Shown in pieces: positions 3,001 to 26,575 of a stretch of 31,090 bases of DNA. Each line of letters starts with the position of its first letter. The stretch's first letter is position 1. The translations under genes and the position numbers were made by a program. The stretch comes from a virus, in the IMG/VR virus record IMGVR_UViG_3300032235_000179, positions 1-31,090 of that record; one strand, given 5' to 3'. The notes under the pieces were generated by a model. The model saw only the letters and a list, made by a program, of their open reading frames with translations, searched no databases and had not been told where the DNA came from.

Positions 3001-3771
3001 GGTACTTCTGGAGAAGCTGGAACATCTGGTACATCTGGAACATCTGGAGCTATTGGTACGGATGGTACATCTGGTTCTTCGGGTTCTTCTGGATTGGATG
3101 GTACAAACTTTGGTTCTTCGGGTACTTCTGGAACATCTGGAACATCTGGAACATCTGGTGCTGGAACATCTGGTTCTTCTGGTGTATTAACATTAACTGG
3201 AACAACTGATAATGGTTTAATTACTCTAAATGGAGCAGCACCAAACGCAGCGGTTGAAAGTAATTTAACATTTGATGGTAGTACATTGACTGTAACTGGT
3301 ACAATTCAGGCAACTGGACCTGTATCCGCATCGGCATTTAACATTTATACTGGTGGAACTCCTAATTTAACTTCACCAACATCGTTAAACATAATTGCAA
3401 CCAATGGTGTTAATCTATCGACTAGTTTAACAACAACTGGATTTACAACATCAACAACTTTCAGAGAAACTTATTCTGATTTAGGTAGTGGTAGTGGTGC
3501 ATCAATTGATTTATCAACTGCAAACAACTTTAAGAGAACTTTCACTGGAAATGGTTCAATATCATTCTCAAATGCGCCTGCTGGAAAAGCATTTGGATTT
3601 ACATTATTAGCAGTAAACGCAGGAAATTACTCATTAGCTTGGAGTGGTGTTAATTGGGTAGGTGGTACACCTCCAATTTTAACTTCATCTGGTGAAGATA
3701 TATTAGTATTTTACACATTTGATGGTGGCACATCTTATTATGGATTTGTAACCGGATTAAACATGAATTAA
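1..3771 (+). CDS. Giant collagen-like tail fibre protein, 5'-truncated by the window edge
   Basis: The frame is open from base 1, so the gene begins upstream; the in-frame TTG at 82 is not a credible start. At least 1256 residues are visible. The first ~70 residues hold GS-rich beta-type repeats (ITGSLDITGSVFV). Then come ~990 residues of Gly-X-Y repeat, mostly Gly-Thr-Ser with Asp, Leu, Val and Ala substitutions (220-3183). A module starting LTLTGTTDNG (3184-3300) follows, and then a C-terminal domain with FSNAPAGKAF and YSLAWSGVNWVGG, a pattern I associate with phage fibre tips. Expected role: a long trimeric receptor-binding fibre. It heads a block with an adhesin and a fibre assembly chaperone, and shares the TTDNG module with the 2477-residue fibre downstream. 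Fibre role is well supported by architecture; receptor and exact virion position are unknown. Confidence 0.85.
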   Translation, partial: AQFALNAQSIDTGSFLLLRGNQRFTGSLAITGSLDITGSVFVAQFYTGSESQLVVTWDPTTKKLETRDVQQAAGTSGTSGTSGTSGTTGSDGTSGTSGTSGTSGTSGTSGIDGTSGTSGTSGTSGTSGIDGTSGSSGTSGTSGTSGTSGSSGSSGTSGSGGTSGSSGSTGTDGTSGTSGTSGTSGTSGTSGTSGTSGSGGTSGTSGSSGTRGSAGTSGTSGTSGTSATSGSSGTSGSAGSTGTAGSGGTSGTSGTSGTTGSSGTSGTSGVDGTSGTSGTSGTSGTSGSSGSAGSGGSAGSSGLDGTSGTSGLDGTSGTSGTSGSSGTSGSSGTAGLAGTSGTSGTSGTSGTSGTTGSSGTTGSSGTSGTSGTSGTSGTNGTSGTSGTSGTSGTSGTSGTSGTSGTSGTDGTSGSSGSSGSSGTTGSDGTSGTSGTSGTSGTDGTSGTSGTSGSSGTTGSDGTSGTSGTSGTSGSDGTSGTSGTSGTDGSEGTSGTSGTSGSDGTSGTSGTDGTSGTSGTDGTSGTSGTDGTSGTSGTSGTSGSDGTSGTSGLDGTNGSDGTSGTSGSSGTSAEGSSGTSGTSGTSGSDGTSGTSGTSGTSGTSGVGTDGTSGTSGTSGTSGSDGTSGTSGTDGTSGTSGTSGLDGTFFGSSGTSGTSGVSGTSGVSGTSGESGSSGVAGADGSSGTSGVDGTFFGSSGTSGTSGTSGTSGTDGTSGTSGESGTSGVDGTFFGSSGTSGTSGSDGTSGTSGENGTSGTSGTSGTSGKDGTFFGSSGTSGTSGTSGESGTSGSSGSSGTSGTSGLDGTYFGSSGTSGTSGTSGIDATDGTSGTSGTSGSSGLDGTFFGSSGTSGADGTSGTSGAGTSGTSGTSGTSGVDGTFFGSSGTSGSSGADGTSGTSGAGTSGSSGSSGESGTSGLDGTFFGSSGTSGESGTSGTSGLSGSSGSSGTSGTSGLDGTLFGSSGTSGTSGTSGTSGLDGSSGTSGTSGTSGLNGTLFGSSGTSGEAGTSGTSGTSGAIGTDGTSGSSGSSGLDGTNFGSSGTSGTSGTSGTSGAGTSGSSGVLTLTGTTDNGLITLNGAAPNAAVESNLTFDGSTLTVTGTIQATGPVSASAFNIYTGGTPNLTSPTSLNIIATNGVNLSTSLTTTGFTTSTTFRETYSDLGSGSGASIDLSTANNFKRTFTGNGSISFSNAPAGKAFGFTLLAVNAGNYSLAWSGVNWVGGTPPILTSSGEDILVFYTFDGGTSYYGFVTGLNMN
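220..3183 (+). repeat. Collagen-like Gly-Thr-Ser tract of the first fibre (~988 residues)
   Basis: Almost uninterrupted Gly-X-Y triplets, dominated by G-T-S and G-S-S, with essentially no proline. Synonymous codons are heavily mixed (GGT/GGA/GGC/GGG, ACT/ACA/ACG, TCT/TCA/TCG/AGC/AGT), so DNA identity between neighbouring triplets is lower than protein identity. From about 1921 onward, eleven copies of a DGT-[FYLN]-FGSS block interrupt the triplet register. Expected to form a thin, rod-like triple-helix-type shaft. Confidence 0.9.
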
Positions 3772-5856: not shown

Positions 5857-8800
5857 ATGGAGTTCAACGGTAAAAGTCCTAATGGGTTAAATCAGTTAAG
5901 TGCAAGTTTAGTATCACTTTTTGTAAGTGGTGGGGCTGTAATTAATGTATCACCCCAATCGGTAAATGTTTTAACAGATATTACAGCATCTGGAGTTCAA
6001 ACTTCGGAAATAAATTCTCCAAATGGTGGAACATTATCCATTCAAAACAATGTAAAAATAACAGGTTCATTATTAGTATCATCATCCGTTTCCGCATCAT
6101 CTGTGGTTGCTAATACATTTGTTGGTGATGGTAGTGGAATAACAAATATACCCGCATCATCAATCGGTGATATTGATAGATTAAAATCAGGTTCAGCTCA
6201 GGCGGTAATCTCACCAAATAAAGGTTTGGAAGTACAAACATCATTGACAGTAAAAGACTTTTTAGTTGTAACTGGTAGTGGTATTTTTAGAGGAGATTTA
6301 AGTGTAGCTGGTACAATTAATACAACTGAATTAAAAGCAACTTATATATCATCTTCTATTATTTTCGCAAGTGGAAGTAATAAATTTGGTGATAATGTAG
6401 TTGATAAGCATGAATTTACTGGAAGTCTTGGTATTAGTGGTTCAATATTTGTAACTGGAAATACGATTGCAACTGATGTTACTACCGATGAAGTATTGGT
6501 ATTAAACACAACCACAGGTAGAATTGGTAGAAAGTTTGCAGCTGCATCTTCTGGTACTTCTGGAACAAGCGGTACATCTGGTACAACTGGTTCATCTGGT
6601 ACAACTGGTTCATCTGGTACAACTGGTTCGGAAGGTACTTCTGGTAGTGGTGGAACAAGCGGTAGTGGTGGTACATCTGGAACATCTGGTAGTGGTGGTA
6701 CATCTGGAACATCTGGTACGAGCGGAACATCTGGTAGTGGAGGAACTTCTGGTTCTTCTGGTTCATCGGGTTCGGCTGGTACAACGGGTTCCGCTGGTAC
6801 TACTGGTTCAAGCGGAACTTCTGGAACTTCTGGAACAAGTGGTACTTCTGGAACTTCTGGTTCATCAGGAACTTCTGGTAGTGGTGGTACATCTGGGACA
6901 AGTGGTAGTAGTGGAAGTAGTGGTTCAACTGGTTCTGCTGGTACAACCGGTTCTGCTGGTACAACTGGTTCTGCTGGTACAACTGGTTCTTCAGGAACAA
7001 CTGGTTCTTCGGGAACATCTGGTACATCGGGTACATCTGGAACAAGCGGTACTTCTGGGACAAGTGGAACAAGTGGTATAACTGGAGCTGGTGGTTCATC
7101 GGGTTCAAGTGGTTCATCTGGTTCTTCTGGAAGTAGTGGTAGTGGTGGTACAACAGGTTCGTCTGGTACATCTGGTAGTGGAGGAAGTGGTGGAACATCT
7201 GGAACTTCTGGTTCAAGTGGTTTAACTGGAGCTGGTGGTGGTAGTGGTTCATCTGGTAGTGGTGGTACATCTGGTACTTCTGGAACAAGCGGAACATCTG
7301 GAACATCTGGTACAAGTGGTACATCGGGAACTTCTGGTTCAAGTGGTAGTTCTGGTTCAAGTGGTACAATGGGAACTGCTGGTAGTGGTGGTACATCTGG
7401 TACTTCTGGAACAAGCGGAACATCTGGCACATCTGGTACAAATGGTACATCAGGTACATCTGGTACAAGTGGCACATCTGGTACTTCTGGTACTTCTGGA
7501 ACTTCTGGTTCCGCTGGTGCAACTGGTTCATCTGGTTCTGCTGGTACATCTGGTACTTCTGGTACTTCTGGAGCATTATCTATAACAGGTACAACCGATA
7601 ATGGTGTAATAACACTAAATGGTTCATCACCAAACGTAACTGCGGAGGCAAATTTAAGATTTGATGGTACTACATTAACTGTGACAGGAAACGAAACTAT
7701 TAGTGGTAACTTAACTGTTGGTGGTACAATCAGAGCACAACAAATATTTGTACAATACATTTCCGCATCTTTAATCTACGCAAGTGGTAGTAATATATTT
7801 GGAGATGCAACAAATGATAAGCAAGAATTTACTGGTTCGGTTGAAATTAGAGATTCAATCACAATTCCAGCATTCTCATCCAATCCTGTTGGTACAAAAG
7901 CTGGACAAATATATTATAATACTTCAGATACTAACATTTACCGATATAATGGTACAACTTGGTTAGCAGCAGCTGGTACTTCTGGTTCTGCTGGTACATC
8001 TGGAACTTCTGGTACAAGTGGAAGTAGTGGTACTTCAGGTACAAGCGGTACTTCTGGAACTTCTGGTTCATCTGGAAGTAGTGGAACAATGGGAACTGCT
8101 GGTACTGGTGGAACTTCGGGCACATCTGGTACATCTGGAACTTCGGGCACATCTGGTACATCTGGAACATCTGGTACATCCGGTTCAAGTGGCACAATGG
8201 GAACTGCCGGAAGTGGTGGAAGTAGTGGAACATCTGGAACTTCTGGAACAAGAGGTACTTCTGGTTCATCTGGAAGTAGTGGTTCATCTGGAAGTAGTGG
8301 AAATGCTGGTGTACCTGGTTCACCTGGTACGCCGGGAGCAAGTGGTTCATCTGGTTCGTCTGGTTCATCCGGCTCTTCTGGTTCATCCGGCTCTTCTGGT
8401 TCATCCGGCTCTTCTGGTATAAATGCGGGTATTACTTCGTTTACAAACCCCGCTGATAATAGAGTATTAACTGCGGTAAGTGCAAATACAATAAATGCAG
8501 AAGCAAACTTAACTTTTGATGGAAGTACATTGGCATTAAATGGTGCATTTTCAAATGGTAACTTTTATATAAATGGTTATGGATATGATACATCAAATGT
8601 AGACCAGTGGCCACACATTTATTGGTTAAGAAACACAGGTGCTGGTTGGGATGAAGGATTGATTAAAAATAGTAGTAGTAGAGGTTTCTTTGGTAAAGCT
8701 GGATTTGGTATTCATATGGATTCATCAAAAGCATTCCATATATTCTCATCTGGTTGGACAGCTAACTTTGGAGTTGAGCATGGTGGTACTGCAATTGCTG

Positions 8801-11800
8801 CTGGTTCATTTAGAGCACCAATATTTTATGATAGTGCAAATACATCATATTATTTAGATGCTAATTCATATTCAAGATTTAGTAGTTTAGCATTAGACCA
8901 ATCAAGAGTTGATAGTAGTAGATATCCAATTGGACATTACACACCCGGTGAAACTGTATTTGAATTTGACCCTATTTGGAATAATACTCAATTACAGGCA
9001 TACTTTAATAGTAGTAACGTAAGTTGGGTAGCTGATTCAACTGCACCTGGTGGATATGCAATATCAATAGTTGGAGCGGTAAACGTTGGTGGTGTATATG
9101 GAAGTGGATTTCCTTACATTCCGGTAGATACAAATGATGTATTCTATATGGAGTGTTGGATTAAATCAATTGGTAGTTCAAATAACCATTATATGGGTTC
9201 TATTGATTTTAATGAATCTTTTGGTAATTTGGGTGGTAACCCTGGTTCATTTGGATATTGGGTAATGAGTAATACTAATACTGGAACTTCTTGGGTTAAG
9301 GTAAGTGGATATATTAGTGGTTTTGGTGGTTCGGTGGGGCAATTTAGACCTGGTACAAAATATTGGACACCACAGGCGTTATTTAACTATGTTGGTGGTG
9401 GTACTTCATATATTAGTGGTTGGAAAGTAATAAAAGTAAGTGTACCTGGTAACAGAACATTTCAGGGTAGTGTATCATTTAGTGGAGGTATTACATCAAA
9501 TATATCAACAAGCGGTAACTTATTTATAAGAAATACATCACCAACAATATATTTGCAAGATACGGATAATCGTTCTGCAATGATTCATAATAACTCTAAT
9601 ATATTTTATGTATTAAGAGGTAGTGGTAATGATAGTACATCTTGGGCAACTGCAAATGGTTATTGGCCATTAGAATTAAATTTAGAAAATAATTACGCAA
9701 CACATGGTGGCGGTGGTCTATTTGTTGGTGATTTAGATGCTGATAGATTCCGTGATAGAAACGATACTTCATATTTTGTAGACCCAGCTAGTACTACAAA
9801 CATATATAACTTAAACTTAATTGGTGGTAAGCATACATATCTTACTATTAATCCTGGCAATGGCTGGGAAGCTATGGTTCGTTATATTGGTGGTAGTGGT
9901 AGTAGTTGGTATGTTGGAAAGCGTACTTCGACGCAATTATTAGGTAGTACAGATGCATTCCATTTTTATTCTGAAACTTCTGGTAGAACTGTTGGTGGAT
10001 ATGATACTGGTGGTAATCATTGGGCAGATGGTTCATCTCGTTCACCAATATTTTATGACCATAATAATACTGGATATTATATAGACCCTACAAGTCAAAG
10101 CAGATTTGCGGGTGGTATTGATTTTGATGGAGGAGCTGGATTACGAAGTGTAACTGCTGGTACATCCTATTCAAATCGTATTCAAATTAGAGAAGTAAGT
10201 GGATATAGTGGTAATACTTCAGCAGTTGGAGCACCTGCACTTGGTTTCCATTGGGGTAATGTGGTTGCATCAAATATTGCATTAGAACCAAGTGGTAGAA
10301 TTGCAATTACTAACAATCCCGGTACTTCATATGAAAACCTTATAGCAAATGATTTTTATTCATATTCGTTAAGAGGTACTGGTAATGTGGGCGGTACTGG
10401 AGCAGCATCTTGGCACCCATCTGGTATTTATTCAGCTGGATATAACTGGATTTATGGTGGTATAAATGGTGGTGGCGGAAACTGGGAGAACGTAAATGGT
10501 ATGTACGCAAGTATCTACTATGATAGAGATAATACTACATTTAGAGTAGACGCTAATGGTTCATCAAAATTAAGTACATTAAATGTTGACAATCTTAATA
10601 CTGGTAACTATATTAACATTGGATACACAAATAATAGTGAATCGATATCAACATCTTCATTTAGAGGTATAGATTGGCATACAACAGGTGACCCTAATTA
10701 TTACATTGGTAAACCTGCTGGTGGATGGACTCAACCATTGAATATAAGATTCTATACGGGTATTAGATTACAATCTCACGAATCATATGGAGGTACACAA
10801 TTTTTTAACATCAATACAGGTAGTACTGTAATGGCAGTTAATAATGGTGATAATTTTGTGCATGTGTACACCAGAATGTATGCACCAATTTACTATGATG
10901 AGAATAATGCTGGATATTATGTAGACCCTGCTTCTTATTCAAACTTAAACGAAGGTAACTTTGCTGGTAGAGTATGGTATAGTAACTATTTGGTAAGTAG
11001 AAACAATGGTGGTTTGATGGGTGATTACAATGTAAATGGTACATCATCTAAAGTAATTTGGACAATTGGTGAAAGCTGGCCAATTGGTAACATGTACGGA
11101 TTGGGTTATGAGTACGGAAGTGGATATGACCATCACCTTGCATTAAGAAACAATGGTACAACTTATTCTCGTATAGGTTTTGCGGGCGGTATGTATATTA
11201 GTGGTGATATTATCGCAAGTAGTATTTCATATGCATATGGTTCTTCAAGAGCACCAATATTCTATGATTACAATAATACTGGATTCTATATAGACCCTAA
11301 TGCTGGTACATCAATATATGTTGCTGGTTCAATTGTAACAACTGGAGCAAACAATTCAAATTCATACTTTGCAATGAACAATTCCTCTACATATTGGGGT
11401 CTTGTTGGTAACTATGGTGTGAATGATTGGAGATTAGGATATGGTGGTACAGGTAATTTAGTTGGTTGGAATTTAAGATGGGATAATGGTAGTACAGCAT
11501 GGGCACAAAACTTCCAAGCTAACATAGTTTATGATGCACAAAATACCGGATTTTATTCAGACCCTAATGGTACATCTGTATTTAGTAGAATTAACGTAAC
11601 TGATTATCTATACGCAAATAACGGAGCAGGTAGAATTTGGTTAAATGGTAACTTACACATAGATTCATTTAGTGGTAACGCAATTTACTTAAACTACTAT
11701 TCAAATCTACCAATTAGACATTATGGACACAATTATCATAGTGGATATGATATATATGAAGTAAACTCATTATATGCAGCTATATTCTATGATAATAATA

Positions 11801-13290
11801 ATAGTGGATTTTATGTAGACCCAACGGGTGATAGAACTACAAACATCAATGGTTGGAATACAACTACGCAAGCTAGAACAGGTGAAACTTTTAAATACAA
11901 CTATTGGAGACCTTATATAACTGGAGATACTAACTATTGGACAGGACAAATGGGATGGGGTACTACGGATTTTAATACCGTAATGACATGGGGTAGTGGA
12001 TTCTTTGATAGTTGGGGACCTGGTGCAAACAACCCTGGTGATACATCTCACTGGGTTGGTATTCAAACATATCACTATGTAAACGGATATAATAGTGGAT
12101 ATGGATGGCAGATGATGGGTGGTGTAACTGATTCATTATGGTGGAGACATAGTTGGTCATCTAATAGTGGTTGGTTCAAAGTTGCAATGTATGATAACAA
12201 CGCACATACTAACCGTTCATTATACGCAAATAGATACTACGATTCTGATGATACGGGATACTATATGGACCCAAATAGTACATCCGATTCAGCAATGAGA
12301 ATTAGAGGTGGTACATTCTATGGACCTAATCCATCGTGGGGAGCATATATGTGGGCTGGTTCAAATGGTAGACCTGATGGTTGGGCATCCGTTGTTACTA
12401 CAAATGGTAACTTACACTTAGATTGCCGTAATGGATATGAAACTTATATTAACCACTATTCTGGTAATAGAACTTATCTTTATGAGATAAGAACAAACTT
12501 TATTTACGATAGAGATAATACGGGATACTATTTAGACCCTAATGGTACATCATATATGAACGTTATTTACAACGGAATTATATATGACCACGATAGTACT
12601 TGGTATTTGGATTTGAACTCCGCATCAAGAACTGCTGGTATGAACGCATTCTTTACTGGATTGTCAAATATGTATCGTATGGGTGTTTCCAATGGATGGG
12701 GTGCATACGAAGGATTTGGTATATCTAACTCTGATAATGGTGCAAACGCAACATTTGAGGTGAACGTAAATGGTAATGGTGACTGGACATCTACTGGTTT
12801 CAACTCTAACGCTCGTAAATATGAGTGGTATTGTGGATACACCAAAATGATGGACTTGGATGAAGGTGGACACTTGAGAACTAGAGGTGCACAATGGGAG
12901 TGGAATGGTTTCTCTGATGCAGATTTGAAAACCAACTTACAGGTTATTGATAATGCATTAGAAAAAATATCACAAATTAGTGGTTACACTTATGAATTTA
13001 CTGAAGATTCTCCATATAGAAACAATGATATTGAGGAAAGAACACATGGAGCTGGTTTAATAGCACAAGAAGTTGAAGCAGTATTGCCTGTATTGGTTGA
13101 TGAAGATTGGGTTGGTGGTGAATACAATAGATACTTCAAAACTCTTAACTATAATGGTGTACATGGTTTGACTGTTCAGGGTATCAAAGAATTAAAAGGA
13201 TACCATGATACATTAGAAGATAGAGTTGCTGCATTAGAAAGCAGATTAGAACAATTGGAAGCACGAATTCAAAATTTAGAAAACCAATAA
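5857..13290 (+). CDS. 2477-residue long tail fibre with collagen-like tracts, YD-type repeats and C-terminal S74 chaperone
   Basis: Residues 1-232 are beta-rich (ITGSLLVSSS, FVGDGSGITNIPASSIG). Residues 233-572 and 707-854 are collagen-like tracts. Between them lies a TTDNG module plus KAGQIYYNTSDTNIYRYNGTTW. Residues ~990-2260 carry about eleven spaced repeats of the type PIFYDxxNTgYYxDPxxxS separated by variable beta domains. The end (from ~2353) is an intramolecular chaperone/peptidase S74 domain: SDADLK with the candidate Ser2353/Lys2358 dyad, then GAGLIAQEVEAVLPVLV, LNYNGVHGLTVQGIKEL and a coiled coil (LEDRVAALESRLEQLEARI). In this family the domain drives trimerisation and then cleaves itself off before the Ser. 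ATG 5857 follows the previous stop by 17 bases. Probably the major long fibre. Confidence 0.88.
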   Translation: MEFNGKSPNGLNQLSASLVSLFVSGGAVINVSPQSVNVLTDITASGVQTSEINSPNGGTLSIQNNVKITGSLLVSSSVSASSVVANTFVGDGSGITNIPASSIGDIDRLKSGSAQAVISPNKGLEVQTSLTVKDFLVVTGSGIFRGDLSVAGTINTTELKATYISSSIIFASGSNKFGDNVVDKHEFTGSLGISGSIFVTGNTIATDVTTDEVLVLNTTTGRIGRKFAAASSGTSGTSGTSGTTGSSGTTGSSGTTGSEGTSGSGGTSGSGGTSGTSGSGGTSGTSGTSGTSGSGGTSGSSGSSGSAGTTGSAGTTGSSGTSGTSGTSGTSGTSGSSGTSGSGGTSGTSGSSGSSGSTGSAGTTGSAGTTGSAGTTGSSGTTGSSGTSGTSGTSGTSGTSGTSGTSGITGAGGSSGSSGSSGSSGSSGSGGTTGSSGTSGSGGSGGTSGTSGSSGLTGAGGGSGSSGSGGTSGTSGTSGTSGTSGTSGTSGTSGSSGSSGSSGTMGTAGSGGTSGTSGTSGTSGTSGTNGTSGTSGTSGTSGTSGTSGTSGSAGATGSSGSAGTSGTSGTSGALSITGTTDNGVITLNGSSPNVTAEANLRFDGTTLTVTGNETISGNLTVGGTIRAQQIFVQYISASLIYASGSNIFGDATNDKQEFTGSVEIRDSITIPAFSSNPVGTKAGQIYYNTSDTNIYRYNGTTWLAAAGTSGSAGTSGTSGTSGSSGTSGTSGTSGTSGSSGSSGTMGTAGTGGTSGTSGTSGTSGTSGTSGTSGTSGSSGTMGTAGSGGSSGTSGTSGTRGTSGSSGSSGSSGSSGNAGVPGSPGTPGASGSSGSSGSSGSSGSSGSSGSSGSSGINAGITSFTNPADNRVLTAVSANTINAEANLTFDGSTLALNGAFSNGNFYINGYGYDTSNVDQWPHIYWLRNTGAGWDEGLIKNSSSRGFFGKAGFGIHMDSSKAFHIFSSGWTANFGVEHGGTAIAAGSFRAPIFYDSANTSYYLDANSYSRFSSLALDQSRVDSSRYPIGHYTPGETVFEFDPIWNNTQLQAYFNSSNVSWVADSTAPGGYAISIVGAVNVGGVYGSGFPYIPVDTNDVFYMECWIKSIGSSNNHYMGSIDFNESFGNLGGNPGSFGYWVMSNTNTGTSWVKVSGYISGFGGSVGQFRPGTKYWTPQALFNYVGGGTSYISGWKVIKVSVPGNRTFQGSVSFSGGITSNISTSGNLFIRNTSPTIYLQDTDNRSAMIHNNSNIFYVLRGSGNDSTSWATANGYWPLELNLENNYATHGGGGLFVGDLDADRFRDRNDTSYFVDPASTTNIYNLNLIGGKHTYLTINPGNGWEAMVRYIGGSGSSWYVGKRTSTQLLGSTDAFHFYSETSGRTVGGYDTGGNHWADGSSRSPIFYDHNNTGYYIDPTSQSRFAGGIDFDGGAGLRSVTAGTSYSNRIQIREVSGYSGNTSAVGAPALGFHWGNVVASNIALEPSGRIAITNNPGTSYENLIANDFYSYSLRGTGNVGGTGAASWHPSGIYSAGYNWIYGGINGGGGNWENVNGMYASIYYDRDNTTFRVDANGSSKLSTLNVDNLNTGNYINIGYTNNSESISTSSFRGIDWHTTGDPNYYIGKPAGGWTQPLNIRFYTGIRLQSHESYGGTQFFNINTGSTVMAVNNGDNFVHVYTRMYAPIYYDENNAGYYVDPASYSNLNEGNFAGRVWYSNYLVSRNNGGLMGDYNVNGTSSKVIWTIGESWPIGNMYGLGYEYGSGYDHHLALRNNGTTYSRIGFAGGMYISGDIIASSISYAYGSSRAPIFYDYNNTGFYIDPNAGTSIYVAGSIVTTGANNSNSYFAMNNSSTYWGLVGNYGVNDWRLGYGGTGNLVGWNLRWDNGSTAWAQNFQANIVYDAQNTGFYSDPNGTSVFSRINVTDYLYANNGAGRIWLNGNLHIDSFSGNAIYLNYYSNLPIRHYGHNYHSGYDIYEVNSLYAAIFYDNNNSGFYVDPTGDRTTNINGWNTTTQARTGETFKYNYWRPYITGDTNYWTGQMGWGTTDFNTVMTWGSGFFDSWGPGANNPGDTSHWVGIQTYHYVNGYNSGYGWQMMGGVTDSLWWRHSWSSNSGWFKVAMYDNNAHTNRSLYANRYYDSDDTGYYMDPNSTSDSAMRIRGGTFYGPNPSWGAYMWAGSNGRPDGWASVVTTNGNLHLDCRNGYETYINHYSGNRTYLYEIRTNFIYDRDNTGYYLDPNGTSYMNVIYNGIIYDHDSTWYLDLNSASRTAGMNAFFTGLSNMYRMGVSNGWGAYEGFGISNSDNGANATFEVNVNGNGDWTSTGFNSNARKYEWYCGYTKMMDLDEGGHLRTRGAQWEWNGFSDADLKTNLQVIDNALEKISQISGYTYEFTEDSPYRNNDIEERTHGAGLIAQEVEAVLPVLVDEDWVGGEYNRYFKTLNYNGVHGLTVQGIKELKGYHDTLEDRVAALESRLEQLEARIQNLENQ
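6553..7572 (+). repeat. Collagen-like tract 1 of the S74 fibre
   Basis: Residues 233-572, about 340 residues of Gly-X-Y, mostly GTS, GSS, GTT, GSA and GGT, with no proline. Unlike the first fibre it lacks the DGT-F-FGSS interruptions. It is followed directly by the module starting LSITGTTDNG (7573 onward). Confidence 0.9.
7975..8418 (+). repeat. Collagen-like tract 2 of the S74 fibre
   Basis: Residues 707-854, about 148 residues of Gly-X-Y. It contains the only proline-bearing collagen triplets I found in the window (GVPGSPGTPG near 8309-8338). It is followed by a divergent third copy of the capping module (ADNRVLTAVSANTINAEANL). Confidence 0.9.
8815..12630 (+). repeat. Eleven dispersed 'FYDxxNTgYYxDP' protein repeats
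   Basis: Copies begin near 8815, 9745, 10039, 10507, 10882, 11251, 11518, 11776, 12226, 12496 and 12565. Consensus is roughly (A/S)-P-I-F-Y-D-x-x-N-T-G-Y-Y-x-D-P-x-x-x-S. They separate non-identical insert domains of about 60 to 300 residues, except the last pair, which are adjacent. They probably mark shaft or knob junctions that punctuate the fibre. Confidence 0.8.
12913..13290 (+). other. Peptidase S74 intramolecular chaperone domain and self-cleavage site
   Basis: This segment encodes residues 2353 to the end. The cleavage site is expected just before Ser2353 in FSDADLK, with Lys2358 as the partner of the Ser-Lys dyad known for this family. The mature fibre would end at about residue 2352 and a ~125-residue chaperone would be released. 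The terminal heptad-like LEDRVAALESRLEQLEARI is consistent with a trimeric coiled coil. Confidence 0.75.
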
Positions 13291-14248: not shown

Positions 14249-16570
14249 ATGGCAGAAAGAATTGTATCACCCGGTGTATTCACAAGAGAAAACGATTTAT
14301 CCTTCTTAACGCAAGGAATCGGTGAAATCGGCGCAGCATTTATAGGTCCTTTCAAACAAGGACCGGCATTCGTACCAACGATTGTAAGAACTCAATCGGA
14401 ATTTGAAGAAATCTTCGGAACTCCGGATGGAACATATTATACTGAATACGCAGTACAACAGTATTTAGCAGAAGCAGGTTCAGCAACTATTGTAAGAGTA
14501 GCTGGTGTTGGTGGATATCAGCAAATAGCACCAATTGCAATTAAAGGTGTGGATATTAATGGAAACTCCAAAATAGTAGGAGTTTTATATTCAACTGCTA
14601 ATGGTGATGAAAAAGTAGGTTTTCCTTCGGCAACAATAACAACAGCAACATCACCGTCTGGTTCATTTGAAATCTCTGGTTCTGGAATTGGATATGTATC
14701 ATCTTCGATTTTTGCAACGGCTACAAATGATATAGCTGATGTATTTGGTGAATCTCCATTTGGTTCTAAGAAAGCATATTCTTACATTTATTTAGAAAAT
14801 ACTGTAAGTGCTTCTTATACTGGTTCTGGATTAGCTAGTGTTGGTGTTTCAAATTTACCAACTCAAGATTACGCATTTGATGCTAACGCAGCTGAAACAC
14901 CAACCGTTCAATCTCAATTAATTAGTGGTGAGAGATACAATTTGTTTAAATTTGTAACATTAGGACATGGTACATTATACAATACTAAATTCAAAATTGG
15001 TATTTCTAATGTTAAAGCAGCTGGTGAAGATGGAGCAACTGATTATTCTACGTTTACTGTAACAATTCGTTCTTATAGTGATACTGATAAGAGAAAAGTT
15101 GTTTTAGAAAATTACTCTAATGTAAACTTAGACCCTGCTTCTCCAAACTATATTGCAAGAAAAATTGGTGATAGATATATGACTATCGATGGTAATGGTA
15201 AAATTACTGAATTTGGTGATTACTCAAACCAATCAAAATATATAAGAGTTGAAGTTCAAAACACTACTGATTTGGGTGGACCTGGTTCATATCCTATCTC
15301 AGCAGCACCATTTGGACATGGGGCATATACAAACCCAATCAAAGCAAACAGTAACGCTGAGGCTAGACAATTCCCAGCAGTAACTTTCCAAACAAATTCA
15401 ACTGGAAACACATCATCATCTCCAATTTATTATGCTGGATTTGATTTTGAAACTACTGGAATTTCAAACGATAACAAACAATATTTAAAACCAATTCCTG
15501 TTGGAGCTCAAACTGGTTCTAACGTAGCATTTGCATTTGATTCTCAATTATCATATGTAATGACTGGTTCGGTTTCATCTGATATGGTTAAGAGACAATT
15601 TGTATTAGGATTCCAAAATGGATTCGATGGTACTAATCCAACAATACCTGTTAATTTGGGAACTGATATTAGTGCAGCTAATACACAAGGATTTAATTGT
15701 TCAACATCTACGGCATCTGGTTCAGTAGCATACGCTAAAGCAATCAACGCTGTATCAAATCCTGATGAATGGGATATCAATATGGTTGTAACTCCTGGTA
15801 TTATTAGAAGATTACATCCAGCAATTACTACGAGAGCAATTGATATGTGTGAAGATAGACAAGATTGTTTCTATATAGCTGATTTTAACTCTTCGGATGA
15901 TACTATTACTGCTGCAACTGAACAAGCTAACTCTGTTGATTCAAATTATGTAGCAACTTACTACCCTTGGGTTAAGACTATTGATAACAACACAAATAAA
16001 TTAATGAGTGTTCCACCATCAGTATTGTTACCGGCTGTTTACGCAAGTAATGATAGATTAGCAGCTGAATGGTTCGCACCTGCTGGTTTGAATAGAGGTG
16101 GTATCACTGGGGCAGTAAGTGTATTAAATAGATTAACACACTCTGAAAGAGATACTTTATATGAGAACAAAGTAAACCCAATTGCAGCATTCCCTGGACA
16201 AGGTATTGTAGCATTTGGACAAAAAACATTGCAAGATAAAGCATCTGCATTAGATAGAATTAATGTAAGAAGATTATTAATCACTGTTAAGAAATACATT
16301 GCTTCTACATCTCGTTATTTGGTGTTCGAACAAAACACAACAACAACAAGAGCTAAGTTTTTGGCAACTGTTAATCCATATTTGGAAAACATTCAAAAAA
16401 GACAAGGTTTGTTTGCATTTAGAGTGGTGATGGATGAAACTAACAACACTCCTGATGTAATTGATAGAAACATATTAGCAGGACAAATTTTCTTACAACC
16501 GGCTAAGACAGCTGAATTCATTGTAATTGATTTCAACATCTTACCAACTGGAGCAAGTTTTACAGCATAA
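14249..16570 (+). CDS. Tail sheath protein (gp18-like)
   Basis: A 773-residue protein. The N terminus (IVSPGVFTRENDLSFLTQGIG, then AAFIGPFKQGPAFVP, a SEFEEIFGTPDG stretch and YLAEAGSATIVRVAG) is the signature of contractile tail sheaths of the T4 gp18 family. The C-terminal part (RINVRRLLITVKKYIA..., RDILAGQIFLQPAKTAEFIVIDF-type ending) matches the conserved domain that contacts the tube and neighbouring subunits. T4 gp18 is about 659 residues, so the variable outer domain is larger here. It is the first gene of the tail block, has its own promoter motif and leader hairpin, and is followed by the tube gene, the usual order. ATG is preceded by GAGATAAAAAA, no strong Shine-Dalgarno. Confidence 0.93.
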   Translation: MAERIVSPGVFTRENDLSFLTQGIGEIGAAFIGPFKQGPAFVPTIVRTQSEFEEIFGTPDGTYYTEYAVQQYLAEAGSATIVRVAGVGGYQQIAPIAIKGVDINGNSKIVGVLYSTANGDEKVGFPSATITTATSPSGSFEISGSGIGYVSSSIFATATNDIADVFGESPFGSKKAYSYIYLENTVSASYTGSGLASVGVSNLPTQDYAFDANAAETPTVQSQLISGERYNLFKFVTLGHGTLYNTKFKIGISNVKAAGEDGATDYSTFTVTIRSYSDTDKRKVVLENYSNVNLDPASPNYIARKIGDRYMTIDGNGKITEFGDYSNQSKYIRVEVQNTTDLGGPGSYPISAAPFGHGAYTNPIKANSNAEARQFPAVTFQTNSTGNTSSSPIYYAGFDFETTGISNDNKQYLKPIPVGAQTGSNVAFAFDSQLSYVMTGSVSSDMVKRQFVLGFQNGFDGTNPTIPVNLGTDISAANTQGFNCSTSTASGSVAYAKAINAVSNPDEWDINMVVTPGIIRRLHPAITTRAIDMCEDRQDCFYIADFNSSDDTITAATEQANSVDSNYVATYYPWVKTIDNNTNKLMSVPPSVLLPAVYASNDRLAAEWFAPAGLNRGGITGAVSVLNRLTHSERDTLYENKVNPIAAFPGQGIVAFGQKTLQDKASALDRINVRRLLITVKKYIASTSRYLVFEQNTTTTRAKFLATVNPYLENIQKRQGLFAFRVVMDETNNTPDVIDRNILAGQIFLQPAKTAEFIVIDFNILPTGASFTA

Positions 16571-16623: not shown

Positions 16624-17118
16624 ATGGCAGAAATATTAGAATACGGACAGATTTTCTTTCAGAATTTCGAACCCAAAATGAAAAACCGATTTGTGATGGA
16701 ATTCACTGGTACAGGAATTGAAGCATATATGGTTAAAACGGCAAATAGACCTTCAATTCAATTTGAAAAGGTAACATTAGACCACATTAATGTTAAAAGA
16801 CAATTGAAAGGTAAAGGTGAGTGGCAAGATTTAGAAGTAACTTTGTATGACCCTATTGTCCCATCAGCCGCACAAGCAGTAATGGAATGGATTCGTTTAT
16901 CACATGAATCAATTACAGGTAGAGATGGTTATGCTGATTTCTATAAAAAAGATATAACTATCAAAATGCTAGGACCGGTAGGTGATGTAGTTGAAGAATG
17001 GACATTAATGGGAGCATTTATTACTAACGCTAACTTTGGTGATTTGGATTGGTCTTCAAATGACCCAGCTATGATAACATTGACACTATCGATGGATTAT
17101 GCTATTTTACAATACTAA
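16624..17118 (+). CDS. Tail tube protein (gp19-like)
   Basis: A 164-residue protein, the same size as T4 gp19 (163 residues). Recognisable features are FEPKMKNRFVMEFTG near the start, IEAYMVKTANRPSIQFEKVTLDH, WQDLEVTLYDPI, the block KKDITIKMLGPVGDVVEEWTLMGAFI and a final LTLSMDYAILQY strand. This is the conserved hexamer-forming beta-barrel of contractile tail tubes. It sits directly behind the sheath gene and is closed by a strong terminator, so sheath plus tube form one unit that can be expressed at very high level. Confidence 0.93.
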   Translation: MAEILEYGQIFFQNFEPKMKNRFVMEFTGTGIEAYMVKTANRPSIQFEKVTLDHINVKRQLKGKGEWQDLEVTLYDPIVPSAAQAVMEWIRLSHESITGRDGYADFYKKDITIKMLGPVGDVVEEWTLMGAFITNANFGDLDWSSNDPAMITLTLSMDYAILQY

Positions 17119-17224: not shown

Positions 17225-17986
17225 ATGAGTCAAAAAGAATACGATTTCCCAACCGAAATATTAGATTTGCCATCTCAAGGTAAAATATATTCAAAAGATA
17301 ATCCATTATCATCCGGTCAAATTACAATAAAATATATGACTGCAAAGGAAGAAGATATTTTATCTTCTACGAATCTTATTAAAAAAGGTGTAGTTTTGGA
17401 TAAATTATTTGAATCTATAATTGTTGATAAAATAAATATAGATGATATTTGTCTTGGTGATAAAAATGCAATTATTCTTGCAACAAGAGTATTGGGATAC
17501 GGACCTGAATATGAGGTAAGTTTTTATTCAGATATACTTAATGAAACAATACAAGCAACTATTGATTTAACACAAGTAAAAACCAAAGATGTTGATTTCT
17601 CTTTATTTCAACATAAAAACGAATTTGAATTTACAACACCAATTGGTAAAAACAAAATTACTTTCAAGTTGCTTACACATGGTGATGAAAAACTAATTGA
17701 TAAAGATTTAGAAGCTATTAAGAAGCTAAATAAAGATACATCATCGGATATTACAACTAGATTACGATATATGATTTTATCGGTAGATGGTAAGAATGAT
17801 ATGGGAACTATTGGTAAATATGTAAACAATATGTTAGCTAGAGATAGTAGAGCATTTAGAGAATATGTAAAATCAATATCGCCGGATGTTAATATGAAAT
17901 TTGAATATACTCATCCAGACGGAGAGGTGGAGGAGGCGCCTATCTCTATGGGAGTAGGGTTTTTTTGGCCTTCCACCAAATCATAG
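17225..17986 (+). CDS. gp26-like baseplate hub / tail assembly chaperone, zero-frame product
   Basis: 253 residues. The N terminus (LDLPSQGKIYSKDNPLSSGQITIKYMTAKEEDILSS, split here as LPSQGKIY and MTAKEEDIL) and DICLGDKNAIILATRVLGYGPEYE fit the T4_baseplate (gp26) family (PF12322 as I recall it). The C terminus is GFFWPSTKS, and FFWP is the usual end of this domain. It lies between the tube and the tape measure, where tail assembly chaperones with programmed frameshifts are normally encoded. Its last codons overlap a second frame that continues for 68 residues; see the extension and slip-site entries. The final 40 bases use GC-rich codons (GAG, GTG, GCG, GGG) unlike the rest of the gene. Role: initiating tail or hub assembly, probably around the tape measure. 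Confidence 0.8.
   Translation: MSQKEYDFPTEILDLPSQGKIYSKDNPLSSGQITIKYMTAKEEDILSSTNLIKKGVVLDKLFESIIVDKINIDDICLGDKNAIILATRVLGYGPEYEVSFYSDILNETIQATIDLTQVKTKDVDFSLFQHKNEFEFTTPIGKNKITFKLLTHGDEKLIDKDLEAIKKLNKDTSSDITTRLRYMILSVDGKNDMGTIGKYVNNMLARDSRAFREYVKSISPDVNMKFEYTHPDGEVEEAPISMGVGFFWPSTKS
17957..17968 (+). other. Predicted programmed frameshift site (T7 run), +1 or -2
   Basis: Zero frame reads GGG TTT TTT TGG. The downstream frame is open only from just after a TAG at 17955-17957, and the zero frame stops at 17984-17986, so any slip must occur in about 27 bases. The seven T's at 17960-17966 are the only slippery run there. tRNA-Phe moving one base forward at TTT-T (or two back) enters the extension frame at GGC 17967. 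A homopolymer sequencing error is the main alternative. Confidence 0.7.
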
Positions 17987-18173
17987 TATTAATTTACATT
18001 CTCAAATATTTGATATGGTTCAATATGGGAATGCATTTACTGTGATGGATTTATATAGATTACCAACTTATTTAAGATTATTTTATTATAAAAAATTAGT
18101 AGATTCAAAGAAAAGAGAAACAGAACAAGTAAAAAGCACAAACAAATCATCAAAAGTTAGGTTTAAGAGATAA
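17958..18173 (+). CDS. Frameshift extension of the tail assembly chaperone
   Basis: After the slip, translation runs GLPPNHSINLHSQIFDMVQ and on through YGNAFTVMDLYRLPTYLRLFYYKKLVDSKKRE to a lysine-rich end at TAA 18171, adding 68 residues for a fusion of about 315. The pattern 'H-x-x-IF-x-x-x-YGN-F-x-x-x-DLY-x-LP-x-x-LR-x-FY-x-KL' resembles the short second frame or small gene that follows gp26-like proteins in T4-like phages. An internal ATG at 18015 could make a separate 52-residue product, but the coding signal continues upstream of it to the slip site and no ribosome site is visible, so a fusion is favoured. As in lambda gpGT, the extension would bind the tape measure (inference). Confidence 0.65.
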   Translation, partial: GFFGLPPNHSINLHSQIFDMVQYGNAFTVMDLYRLPTYLRLFYYKKLVDSKKRETEQVKSTNKSSKVRFKR

Positions 18174-18194
18174 CATCAAAAAACCTAACTTTTT
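18152..18194 (+). terminator. Intrinsic terminator after the chaperone extension
   Basis: Arms AAAAGTTAGGTTT (18152-18164) and AAACCTAACTTTT (18181-18193) form a perfect 13-bp stem with a 16-base loop and a T-rich tail. The 5' arm overlaps the last codons of the extension frame, which itself supports that frame as the end of a gene. Confidence 0.85.
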
Positions 18195-18243: not shown

Positions 18244-18468
18244 ATGAAAAAATATAAATTATCCGAAGGAAACTTTAATAAATTTTTGAGTTTTTTTGGA
18301 ATAAAAAGTTCGGAAAGACCAAAGTCAATGGAAGATATAATATCAAATGACCCAAAATTGAAAAAATTAGATAAGCAAATGGGTGACTTAAATAGACAAG
18401 CTGCCGATAGAATTAAAAATGACCCAAATTTACTTTACCTTTTTAAGAGAGCTGGTATAGATATATAA
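18244..18468 (+). CDS. Small protein of unknown function upstream of the tape measure
   Basis: 74 residues, charged and predicted mostly helical: MKKYKLSEGNFNKFLSFFG at the start, then SMEDIISNDPKLKKLDKQMGD and RIKNDPNLLYLFKRAGIDI. It ends 3 bases before the tape measure ATG, so the two are translationally linked. I do not recognise a family. Two repeated NDPxL segments (SNDPKL, KNDPNL) are visible. The position suggests a tail assembly accessory that acts with the tape measure. Confidence 0.6.
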   Translation: MKKYKLSEGNFNKFLSFFGIKSSERPKSMEDIISNDPKLKKLDKQMGDLNRQAADRIKNDPNLLYLFKRAGIDI

Positions 18469-18471
18469 TAA

Positions 18472-20976
18472 ATGGCTAATTTAGAAAATATTGATGATAA
18501 TTTAAAGAAACAGAATGATGCTTATGCTAAATCGCATAAAGAGCAAATCGCGTCCTTTAAACAAATTGAAAAACTAAAAAAACAAATTCTAGAGGTAGAG
18601 AAACTAGAAACAGAAGAATCTAAAAAGAAATTAGCTGTATTAAAACAACAAGAAAAACAAGAAATCAAAAGCTACACATCAAAGAAAAAAGTAGCAGATG
18701 AAAATAAAAAAGAATTAGACCATACTAAAAAATTAAAAAATGCAAGGGAAGAATCTGTAAATTTTTTTAAGGATTATGTAAGTGAGTTTAAAAAAATGGC
18801 TCCTGAAGTACAAAAACAATTAACTCTTGATAAAACAAAAGGTGAATTGTATTTAGAACTTGGTGCTAGAATGTCACAATTAAAAAGTATCATAGGAAGA
18901 ACCAGCGGAATTGTACAGCAAACAGCCCAAGCTGAATTTGATGCATTACAATCTGTTAGTGGTGAAATGCATAGTCAAGCTGATATGACGGCAGAAGCAA
19001 TTAAATTAGCTTTGGGTTTTAATGAAAGTGAATACAAAGAAAAAATAAGGTTAATAAAAGTAAACGAAAAATTAAGTAAGGCAGATAAAGAAAGAGCAAT
19101 TGCTGGATTGAAATATGCCGAACATTTAGAAGAAAAAACCGAAGTTATCAATGAATTAGCTGAAAAGCGTACTGAAATTTTTGAAGGAGTAAATGAAGAA
19201 TTAAAGAGTTCAGTAAAAGGTGCTATTGGTATGGCCGAAGCATTTAAAAAAGGAGGGTTTGCATTAGGTTTAATTGGATTGGCAGTGGCTGGAATTGCAC
19301 TTGCTGTTGAGGCATTTGTTGATTTAGATAAAGCAGCTGAAGATTATAGAAAAACAAGTGGATTTACCGTAAAACAAACGGAACACTTAGAGCATCAAGT
19401 ACATGAGGTTGAGGTTGGTATGCGAAAAATTGGAGTTGAGGCATCTCATGTATATGATGTAATAAACTCTTTAGGAAACTCTTTTAGTGATGTTGTTACA
19501 TTTTCAACTGAAACATTGGGTGCATTATCTGCTATAACTGCTAGAACGGGAGTTACATCAGATGTAGCAAGTAAAGTACAGGCACAATTCGAACAAATTG
19601 GTGGATATTCATCCGAAACAGCAGCTAGCTTACAAATGCAAGTTGCTGCATTATCACAACAAGCCGGTGTATCTCCAAAGGAAGTATTAGAAGATATTGC
19701 AGATAGTGCAGAAATAACATCTAAATTTTTTAAGGGAGATATAACACTACTAAAAAATCAAGCAATAGAAGCTCATAGATTGGGTACTAATCTGGAAAGT
19801 GTAGCAAAAGTAGCTGAAGGTTTATTAGATTTTGAAACTGGTATTGAAGAAGAATTAAAAGCAGCAACATTTGTTGGTGGGCAATTTAATTTGAGTAGAG
19901 CTAGAGCATTGGCATATGAAAATAAGATAGTAGAAGCTCAGCAAGAAACTATTTCACAAATTCAAAGAAGTGGTGATTTTCGTAAAAAAGATTTTTTCAC
20001 ACAAACTCAATTAGCTAAAGCGGCTGGTATGAGTGTTGAACAAATTACTAAACAAATTGGGATGCAAGAAAAATTATCCAAATTAAGTGGTAAGGAGTTA
20101 GAAAATGCAAAAGAAGCAGTAAACGCTGGATTAGATATATCAAATATAAAAGATGAAGATTTAAAGCAAAAAACGGAAGAGTTTGTTCAAAACCAAAAAA
20201 TTACGGGTCAATTAACGGATATGATGAATGTTGTTAAACAAATTGGTGTAACATTTGGTTCTTTTTTACTACCACCATTAAAATTAATGGCAGATGGTTT
20301 ACAATTTATGTTAGATAATAGCTGGGCATTGTATTCTGCTATGGGATTGATTGCTGGAATTATGTTTGTACAATATCAATCAGCACAAGCAGCAGCTGCG
20401 GCAACGGCTAGTAGATTGGCATTGGAGGAAGCTATATTAGTTGCAAAAGCCAGCGAATTGGGGTTATCCAGTAGTTTAATAGCAGCCGGTACTGCTCAAT
20501 CGGCAGTTAATGCATCTTCTGCAGTTGGTGGTATTTTTGGTTCATTTGCAAAAATACCATTTGGTTTAGGTATCCCATTAGCAATTGCGGCAATAGCTGG
20601 TTTATTTGGATTAATGTCCAGAAGTAAAACAGAAGCTACATCTGTACATGATGCTCAAATTAATCCGGACGGAGGATTGATGGTATCGGGTCCAAAGGGT
20701 ATGTATAGTTTAGATAAAAACGATTCAGTAATAGCTGGTACTGGTTTGGGTGGTTCGGAATCATCTGATAATACAAACTTAAATGCGGCAGCTGTTCTTG
20801 GTGCAACCGGAATAGGTGCTGGGGCTGCAGTTAATATACTTGTTCAAGAAATAAAACAAATGAGAAAAGATATGGCATCAAAAACAAATGATGTTTATAT
20901 GGATGGTTCAAAGGTTTCATCGCAATTAAAAACGCAAACAGACAAAAGCAATAGAAATAATTTTTCTTTAGCATAA
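18472..20976 (+). CDS. Tail length tape measure protein
   Basis: 834 residues. Residues 1-110 are lysine/glutamate-rich coiled coil. Hydrophobic segments occur at about 261-285 (GLIGLAVAGIALAVEAFVDL), 617-640 (SWALYSAMGLIAGIMFV) and 697-715 (PLAIAAIAGLFGLM). The C-terminal part has VHDAQINPDGGLMVSG, GMYSLDKNDSVIAGT and a glycine/alanine-rich segment, a tail seen in many tape measure proteins. At about 1.5 angstrom per residue it would set a tail near 125 nm, longer than T4 (gp29, 590 residues, ~100 nm). Its position right after the frameshifted chaperone and before the baseplate proteins fits. The hydrophobic segments may act in membrane passage of DNA. Confidence 0.87.
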   Translation: MANLENIDDNLKKQNDAYAKSHKEQIASFKQIEKLKKQILEVEKLETEESKKKLAVLKQQEKQEIKSYTSKKKVADENKKELDHTKKLKNAREESVNFFKDYVSEFKKMAPEVQKQLTLDKTKGELYLELGARMSQLKSIIGRTSGIVQQTAQAEFDALQSVSGEMHSQADMTAEAIKLALGFNESEYKEKIRLIKVNEKLSKADKERAIAGLKYAEHLEEKTEVINELAEKRTEIFEGVNEELKSSVKGAIGMAEAFKKGGFALGLIGLAVAGIALAVEAFVDLDKAAEDYRKTSGFTVKQTEHLEHQVHEVEVGMRKIGVEASHVYDVINSLGNSFSDVVTFSTETLGALSAITARTGVTSDVASKVQAQFEQIGGYSSETAASLQMQVAALSQQAGVSPKEVLEDIADSAEITSKFFKGDITLLKNQAIEAHRLGTNLESVAKVAEGLLDFETGIEEELKAATFVGGQFNLSRARALAYENKIVEAQQETISQIQRSGDFRKKDFFTQTQLAKAAGMSVEQITKQIGMQEKLSKLSGKELENAKEAVNAGLDISNIKDEDLKQKTEEFVQNQKITGQLTDMMNVVKQIGVTFGSFLLPPLKLMADGLQFMLDNSWALYSAMGLIAGIMFVQYQSAQAAAAATASRLALEEAILVAKASELGLSSSLIAAGTAQSAVNASSAVGGIFGSFAKIPFGLGIPLAIAAIAGLFGLMSRSKTEATSVHDAQINPDGGLMVSGPKGMYSLDKNDSVIAGTGLGGSESSDNTNLNAAAVLGATGIGAGAAVNILVQEIKQMRKDMASKTNDVYMDGSKVSSQLKTQTDKSNRNNFSLA

Positions 20977-26195: not shown

Positions 26196-26575
26196 GGGGA
26201 TGACCGGCTTTTGACAGGTATGAAGACTGGTTGTATTGATGCAAGTAAGGTTAGATGGAAACCTTTGAAGACCTATCAAACAATAAGTGCAAACGTAGAA
26301 TTATCTACAATGACGTTCGAAGATGCTATGGCATGGATGAACTCATTCGATTACGCAGTAGCTGCCTAATCAATCCCGCATCACTCGTGGGACTTAAAAA
26401 GAAGTGAACATTTAAGTTTATCCAAACTCAAAATGGATTGGTGGAATCTGCTGAATTAACCATTCGGCCCCAATTCTTTTGGAGTGTTAGTAAGATAAAA
26501 CACTATCCTAAACTTGTGAACGATTTACATTAGAAACTTATCTGGACGCGGGTTCGAATCCCGCCATCTCCACCA
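26196..26575 (+). ncRNA. ssrA: Transfer-messenger RNA (tmRNA), phage-encoded, CCA included
   Basis: Rescues stalled ribosomes by adding a degradation tag. The 5' end GGGGATG (26196-26202) pairs with CATCTCC (26565-26571), followed by A and an encoded CCA at 26573-26575. The third pair is G-U, the alanine identity element. The D-arm region reads GGCTTTTGACAGG and the T arm is CGGGTTCGAATCCCG, with GGACGCGGG ahead as in bacterial ssrA. The tag frame starts at GCA 26289 and ends at TAA 26367-26369. A hairpin TCCCGC...GTGGGA follows the tag stop as helix 5 would. Total 380 bases, normal for a one-piece tmRNA. It has its own Bacteroidota-type promoter and terminator. An apparent 67-codon reading frame (26166-26369) over it is the tag frame extended backwards and is not a gene. 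Confidence 0.95.
26289..26369 (+). other. tmRNA proteolysis tag reading frame (26 residues)
   Basis: The resume codon is taken as GCA (Ala) in AAGTGCAAACG, matching the usual position and A-rich context. The tag begins ANVELSTM and ends NSFDYAVAA, followed by TAA; with 26 residues it is much longer than the ~10 residues of E. coli. The last residues AVAA keep the small/hydrophobic C terminus read by ClpXP-type proteases. It contains three Met and one Trp, unusual for a tag. Confidence 0.8.

Follow-up and report, generated by a model that had tools for sequence, protein, structure and literature searches.

Frameshifting in the tail assembly chaperone gene is a textbook feature of lambda-like phages, with T4 as the listed exception. 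According to a 2016 review, it is widespread and conserved among long-tailed phages, T4 excepted, and in HSTV-2 the shift is very likely +1 (PMC5009743). A +1 shift at TTT-CGC has also been proposed for the HF1-like viruses (PMC7230728), Pakpunavirus and its relatives have a -1 GTTTTT site (PMC12846349), and SPP1 has a +1 shift in the tail tube gene and a putative -1 shift in the chaperone gene (PMC6316719). Some T4-like phages are reported to carry a short gene and a fused long one, an arrangement that does not involve frameshifting (Vladimirov, Gautam, Davidson 2022, cited in the PRFect paper, PMC10885494). Chaperone frameshifting as a kind is already known, and +1 shifts have been suspected in haloviruses. 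In the open-access literature searched, with subscription journals outside the search, no paper joining TTTTTTTGG with frameshifting and phages was found. Within the same limits, the +1 signal in the gp26 family, its breadth and its switches to -1 are likely to be undescribed.

The locus reported here is a gp26-like gene overlapped at its 3' end by an open reading frame (ORF) in the +1 frame, and it lies in the window, i.e., the whole 31,090-base IMG/VR virus record that was analysed. It is very likely (probability of about 0.88) that a programmed +1 ribosomal frameshift yields both a short and a long tail assembly chaperone from this one gene, a reading reached without protein or ribosome data. 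The ribosomal nature of the step, its efficiency and the chaperone function of the products are inferred and not shown.

The two-frame gene and its predicted products

The genes in this part of the window are ordered as sheath, tail tube, gp26-like gene, small ORF and tape-measure-sized gene (Table 1). The two-frame gene is thus placed between the tail tube and tape measure genes, as in G/G-T type chaperones. The 3' end of the gp26-like gene reads GGG TTT TTT TGG CCT TCC ACC AAA TCA TAG (GFFWPSTKS*) and harbors a run of seven T (T7) at 17960-17966. In the +1 frame, a TAG stop lies at 17955-17957; from 17958 this frame is open, and it ends with TAA at 18171-18173; reading from the switch point gives 68 residues (GLPPNHSI...VRFKR). 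Since the +1 frame is stopped at 17955-17957 and the zero frame ends at 17986, a change of frame is possible only within 17958-17986. The earliest ATG, GTG or TTG in the +1 ORF is the ATG at 18015, after 16 codons of the T-like domain (hereafter, T domain).

Table 1. Positions of the two-frame chaperone gene, its parts and the neighbouring genes in the window.
Feature	Position	Strand	Description
Sheath gene	14249-16570		upstream of the tail tube gene
Tail tube protein (gp19-like)	16624..17118	+	PF06841, E 5.6e-11; phrog_4542
Zero-frame ORF, gp26-like gene	17225..17986	+	253 aa; putative short tail assembly chaperone (TAC-N, lambda gpG analogue); PF12322 T4_baseplate / gp26-like
+1-frame ORF, stop to stop	17958..18173	+	sequence read directly
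Slip site TTT TTT TGG	17960..17968	+	zero-frame codons 17960-62, 17963-65, 17966-68
First +1-frame codon past the proposed shift, GGC (Gly)	17967..17969	+	predicted junction peptide ...GVG-FF-GLPPNH
T-like C-terminal extension domain	17967..18173	+	68 aa, three predicted helices; predicted long product (TAC-NC) of 315 aa
Terminator-like inverted repeat	18154..18192	+	overlaps the end of the +1 ORF, T-rich stretch after; read directly from sequence
Small ORF between the chaperone and tape-measure-sized genes	18244-18468
Tape-measure-sized protein	18472..20976	+	834 aa; same position as the tape measure genes annotated in immuto, SP-15 and LIS04

The initial annotation had described a zero frame ending in GFFWP-x-TKS and an overlapping frame open for 68 residues, and both statements held. 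The 27-base overlap it gave is close to the 29 nt obtained when the zero-frame stop is counted. It had also placed a terminator at the end of the ORF: a terminator-like inverted repeat is indeed seen there (arms AAGTTAGGTTT at 18154-18164 and AAACCTAACTT at 18182-18192, followed directly by a T-rich tract), with a 17-nt loop that exceeds the limits of the terminator scan, so that the repeat rests on sequence reading only.

The T-run by itself is not rare, as TTTTTTTGG occurs three times in the AT-rich window against 1.0 expected. What exceeds chance is its position, reading phase and conservation, and not its mere presence. A further TTTTTTTGG is found at 18291-18299 (+), 330 nt downstream and within the small ORF, where it sits in another phase (AGT TTT TTT GGA).

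The zero-frame protein matches phrog_150 (E-value, 1.8e-7) and PF12322 (E-value, 9.5e-6), the latter passing narrowly at 25.9 bits against a curated cut-off of 24.5; its relatives in SP-15 and P-SSM2 score 100 and 259 bits, respectively. The T domain is absent from the Pfam and PHROGs matches, and BLAST of this domain alone against phage records gave nothing useful, so a profile was required. The profile of the +1 T domain matches gp51 of P-SSM2 (E-value, 1.5e-4) and gave no match to T4 gp51. For the 315-residue fusion, modelled from the fusion of the window together with unshifted rows from homologous loci, a confident fold was predicted (pLDDT 94.7, pTM 0.89), in which the T domain forms three helices. 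The viral matches of this fold in the structure search were gp26/gp51-type hub proteins. The fold search of the PDB returned nothing significant (the HK97 chaperone 2ob9 was a weak hit, prob 0.23), the sequence search of solved structures revealed no relative, and the plasmid search gave no matches. Based on family membership and synteny, and without experiment, it is inferred that the gp26-like gene encodes a tail assembly chaperone of the T4 gp26/gp51 family, an analogue of lambda G/G-T.

Elsewhere in the window, a phage-encoded tmRNA was identified at 26196-26575 (+) by ARAGORN and Rfam (RF00023, 98.1 bits), with an unusually long predicted tag, ANVELSTMTFEDAMAWMNSFDYAVAA. In addition, the ORFs at 82-3771 and 5857-13290 (+) contain very long GTSGTSG-type repeats, to which the long antisense ORFs at the same positions are attributed; the second encodes 2477 aa with a tail-fibre-like C-terminus.

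Conservation of the slip site and of both frames

T7GG in the same phase, read as TTT TTT TGG, and both frames are kept in 16/16 IMG/VR homologues (72-98% identity), and likewise in two isolate phages, Microcystis phage Mel-JY01 and Rhodothermus phage RM378. The isolate Flavobacterium phage immuto has both frames and TTT_CTT_TGG at the site, and SP-15, LIS04 and GXN1 show the two-frame arrangement with other sites; all these isolates are at 25-49% identity. Profile scans of viral contigs pointed to at least several hundred more loci, and 17 others, nearly all in metagenome bins, came from genome contigs.

The motif F[FL][WY] is found near the C-terminus in 184/200 loci, and all 184 have YTT_T there. 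The variants comprise 127 TTTTTTTGG, 42 TTTTTTTAC, 4 TTTTTTTAT and 6 TTTCTTTGG, together with the rarer TTCTTTTGG (2), TTCCTTTGG (2) and TTCTTTTAC (1); T7 is retained in 173 of the 184. In a codon test on 105 clusters formed at 70% identity, the second Phe codon was TTT in 86/86 clusters, compared with 71.5% TTT elsewhere in the same genes (10^-12.5), and the first was TTT in 90/92 (p 3e-11). The +1 ORF may open as little as 5 nt 5' of the P-site codon, and the narrowest stretch permitting the change of frame is 23 nt; a slip site kept at the overlap, a feature of G/G-T type chaperones, is present. A few +1 loci use other sites (TTT_CTA, TTC_TTT_CGT_CCC_CGA, TTT_TTT_CAC, TTT_TTT_AGT and longer T-runs). 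Thus, YUU_U is the main site in gp26-type loci and not the sole one.

Downstream of the zero-frame stop, the +1 frame has a dN/dS of 0.098, while the other frames have 1.06 and 1.91 (722 pairs, 118 loci), and the substitutions in these pairs number 5286, 2782 and 11464 by codon position. Because one sequence can enter several pairs, the pairs are not independent, and no p-value is given. The first 12 +1 codons past the stop are constrained as well (dN/dS, 0.16), and within the overlap the +1 frame is the most constrained (0.56 vs 1.61 for the zero frame). In many loci, that of the window among them, these constrained early codons precede any possible start codon, and in 35/220 loci no start codon occurs before codon 25 of the T domain. 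Each of the two frames is conserved and shows the behaviour of coding sequence.

With a profile derived from 86 +1-frame domains, 245 distinct phage loci were scanned in the +1 and -1 frames. Of these, 226 have YTT_T with GG or AY after it, and among them the T domain was recognised in the +1 frame of 225 and in the -1 frame of none; the one exception is RM378, in which the +1 ORF is open and the domain was not recognised by the profile. Twelve loci without YTT_T(GG/AY) have canonical -1 heptamers and carry the same T domain in the -1 frame, so that the relation of site type to frame is 225 to 0 against 0 to 12. The requirements of a -1 site (the heptamer X_XXY_YYZ with a -1-frame ORF) are not met by the window and 224 other loci, where the T domain is in the +1 frame. 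In ten of the 12, which form a separate group of their own, the domain follows A_AAT_TTT or T_TTT_TTC; TTT_TTC_TTC is among the sites of the -1 loci. The other two, L304 and L357, came from a later scan. They have TTC_TTC_TGG where relatives have TTT_TTT_TGG, both have changed frame, and their T domain is in the -1 frame behind A_AAT_TTC. Apart from each other, their nearest relatives are +1 loci at ~50% identity.

In this pair, evolution seems to have switched the direction of the frameshift while keeping the product.

All 80 cyanophage-type gp26 genes (L205-L284) have T_TTT_TTC, and their longest shifted ORF is in the -1 frame. In the same 80/80 loci the gp26 stop is also followed, at exactly 2 nt, by an ATG, and it is possible that cyanophage gp51 comes from both a -1 fusion and re-initiation.

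Proposed mechanism and alternative explanations

In the proposed mechanism, most ribosomes would read 17225-17986 and release the 253-aa short form, while a fraction would slip with the P-site Phe-tRNA on UUU (17963-65) and the A site awaiting UGG. The same Phe-tRNA would move one base forward, re-pair with UUU (17964-66), accept GGC and read on to 18173, giving the 315-aa long form with its helical T domain. By analogy to lambda gpG/gpG-T, the short form may coat the tape measure protein and the T domain may recruit tail tube subunits. A +1 slip in the P site (YUU to UUU) is favoured because it fits all YTT_T variants: the natural variants TTT_CTT_TGG, TTC_TTT_TGG and TTC_CTT_TGG retain the +1 domain and permit this re-pairing. 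A precedent is CUU_U of prfB, and the next most slippery codons are UUU and CCC (PMC10885494).

RNA structure prediction up- and downstream of the site gave no consistent signal (z -1.7 to +1.3) and nothing conserved. With regard to a Shine-Dalgarno-like stimulator, no purine-rich element is conserved across clusters; the window itself has GAGGTGGAGGAGG upstream of the slip site. The retention of TTT as the first Phe codon exceeds what a minimal UUU_U slip needs and counts against the simple model. It may be, although this is only inferred, that weak E-site pairing or residual slippage on the run also matters.

The alternative that survives best, though very unlikely, is transcriptional slippage, in which RNA polymerase loses one U (or gains two) on the T7 run and generates +1-frame mRNAs. 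It is supported by T7 in 173/184 loci and TTT as the first Phe codon in 90/92 clusters, both beyond the UUU_U need, and by the occurrence of both shift directions in one family, a pattern tied to polymerase slippage in transposases (PMC3711429). However, loci with TTC_CTT_TGG, TTC_TTT_TGG or TTT_CTT_TGG, where only 3-4 T remain, keep the +1 domain, and the two directions pair with two distinct ribosomal slip motifs. Seven T is a short run for polymerase slippage.

A -2 ribosomal frameshift on the T-run would end in the same frame, and on T7 the P-site tRNA could re-pair with UUU at 17961-63. This is highly improbable, as the same three variants bar such re-pairing (TCT or TCC lies two bases back) and the domain is still in frame. 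Also very unlikely is the idea that the T domain is a separate gene, expressed from an internal start or by re-initiation past the zero-frame stop. Some start codon is present in the +1 ORF at many loci, and in cyanophages the ATG 2 nt past the stop is found in 80/80. In the window, however, the first start is at 18015, 16 codons into the domain; the position of the start is not conserved, 35/220 loci have none before codon 25, the early codons have a dN/dS of 0.16, and the tie between site type and frame is left unexplained. Homopolymers are error-prone, but the view that a single intact gene was split by an error of sequencing or assembly at its T-run, including the six or eight T's by read error that the initial annotation had named as refuting its proposal, is excluded by homologues: the same run and the same two frames are present in the isolates Mel-JY01 and RM378 and in metagenome contigs from many samples, and immuto has TTT_CTT_TGG.

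The programmed +1 ribosomal frameshift accordingly remains the preferred reading. The initial annotation, made from sequence alone, had proposed that a gp26-like tail assembly chaperone gene undergoes programmed frameshifting, which is strongly supported: the site and the two frames are conserved, the +1 frame is under purifying selection, and a profile links the extension to cyanophage gp51. Both the T-run and the two frames, which it had suggested following in an alignment of homologues, were found to be conserved. It had left the direction as +1 or -2, of which +1 is now favoured and -2 disfavoured from the TTT_CTT_TGG, TTC_TTT_TGG and TTC_CTT_TGG variants. It had called such a shift unusual, which is right in general; in the gp26-type family it is the rule (225/245 distinct loci).

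A bolder reading, towards which the evidence leans, is that P-site UUU/CUU slips before a sense codon (UGG/UAY) constitute a widespread +1 class that operates without a stop codon, Shine-Dalgarno element or RNA structure and is used by the gp26-type chaperones of most sampled non-T4 myophages. Direction would then have varied among lineages (-1 in two separate groups and in cyanophages) through exchange of the slip site, with the same product.

Comparison with described systems

Hundreds of natural versions of a +1 site are available in the gp26 family, although no general motif is agreed for such sites (PMC10885494), and relatives that differ in shift direction allow direct tests of what determines it. 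Current annotations either lack the T domain or list it apart: no gene covers it in immuto, and in RM378 and Mel-JY01 it is a separate hypothetical protein.

Among the described systems, prfB (RF2) shares the YUU_U geometry of the P-site slip at CUU_UGA, and CUU_U is found among gp26-type loci too. However, in prfB the A-site codon is a stop and there is an internal Shine-Dalgarno sequence, whereas gp26-type loci have UGG or UAY and no visible stimulator. The HF1-like haloviruses and HSTV-2 resemble the window in having a myovirus tail chaperone with a proposed +1 shift and UUU in the P site (PMC7230728, PMC5009743); they differ in the TTT-CGC site and archaeal hosts, and no sequence relationship to the gp26 family is claimed. 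Lambda gpG/gpG-T (Xu, Hendrix, Duda) likewise lies between the tail tube and tape measure genes, and its long form, reached by frameshifting, adds a small T domain to the C-terminus of the short one. The shift of lambda is -1, in contrast to the +1 shift proposed for the window, where the site is YUU_U and the A site holds a sense codon; the proteins of the window belong to the T4 gp26/PF12322 family. The cyanophage gp26-gp51 genes (P-SSM2 and 80 relatives) are of the same family, with the same T domain and poly-T at the gene end, but have the T_TTT_TTC heptamer, the T domain in the -1 frame and a conserved ATG 2 nt past the stop. T4 gp26 and gp51 are also of this family, gp26 resembling the short form and gp51 the long form with a T-like end; in T4 these are two separate genes, whereas the window has one gene with a putative +1 shift. 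Since relatives of the T4 chaperone are encoded by a single two-frame gene bearing a +1 signal, the two-gene state of T4 appears as one of several solutions.
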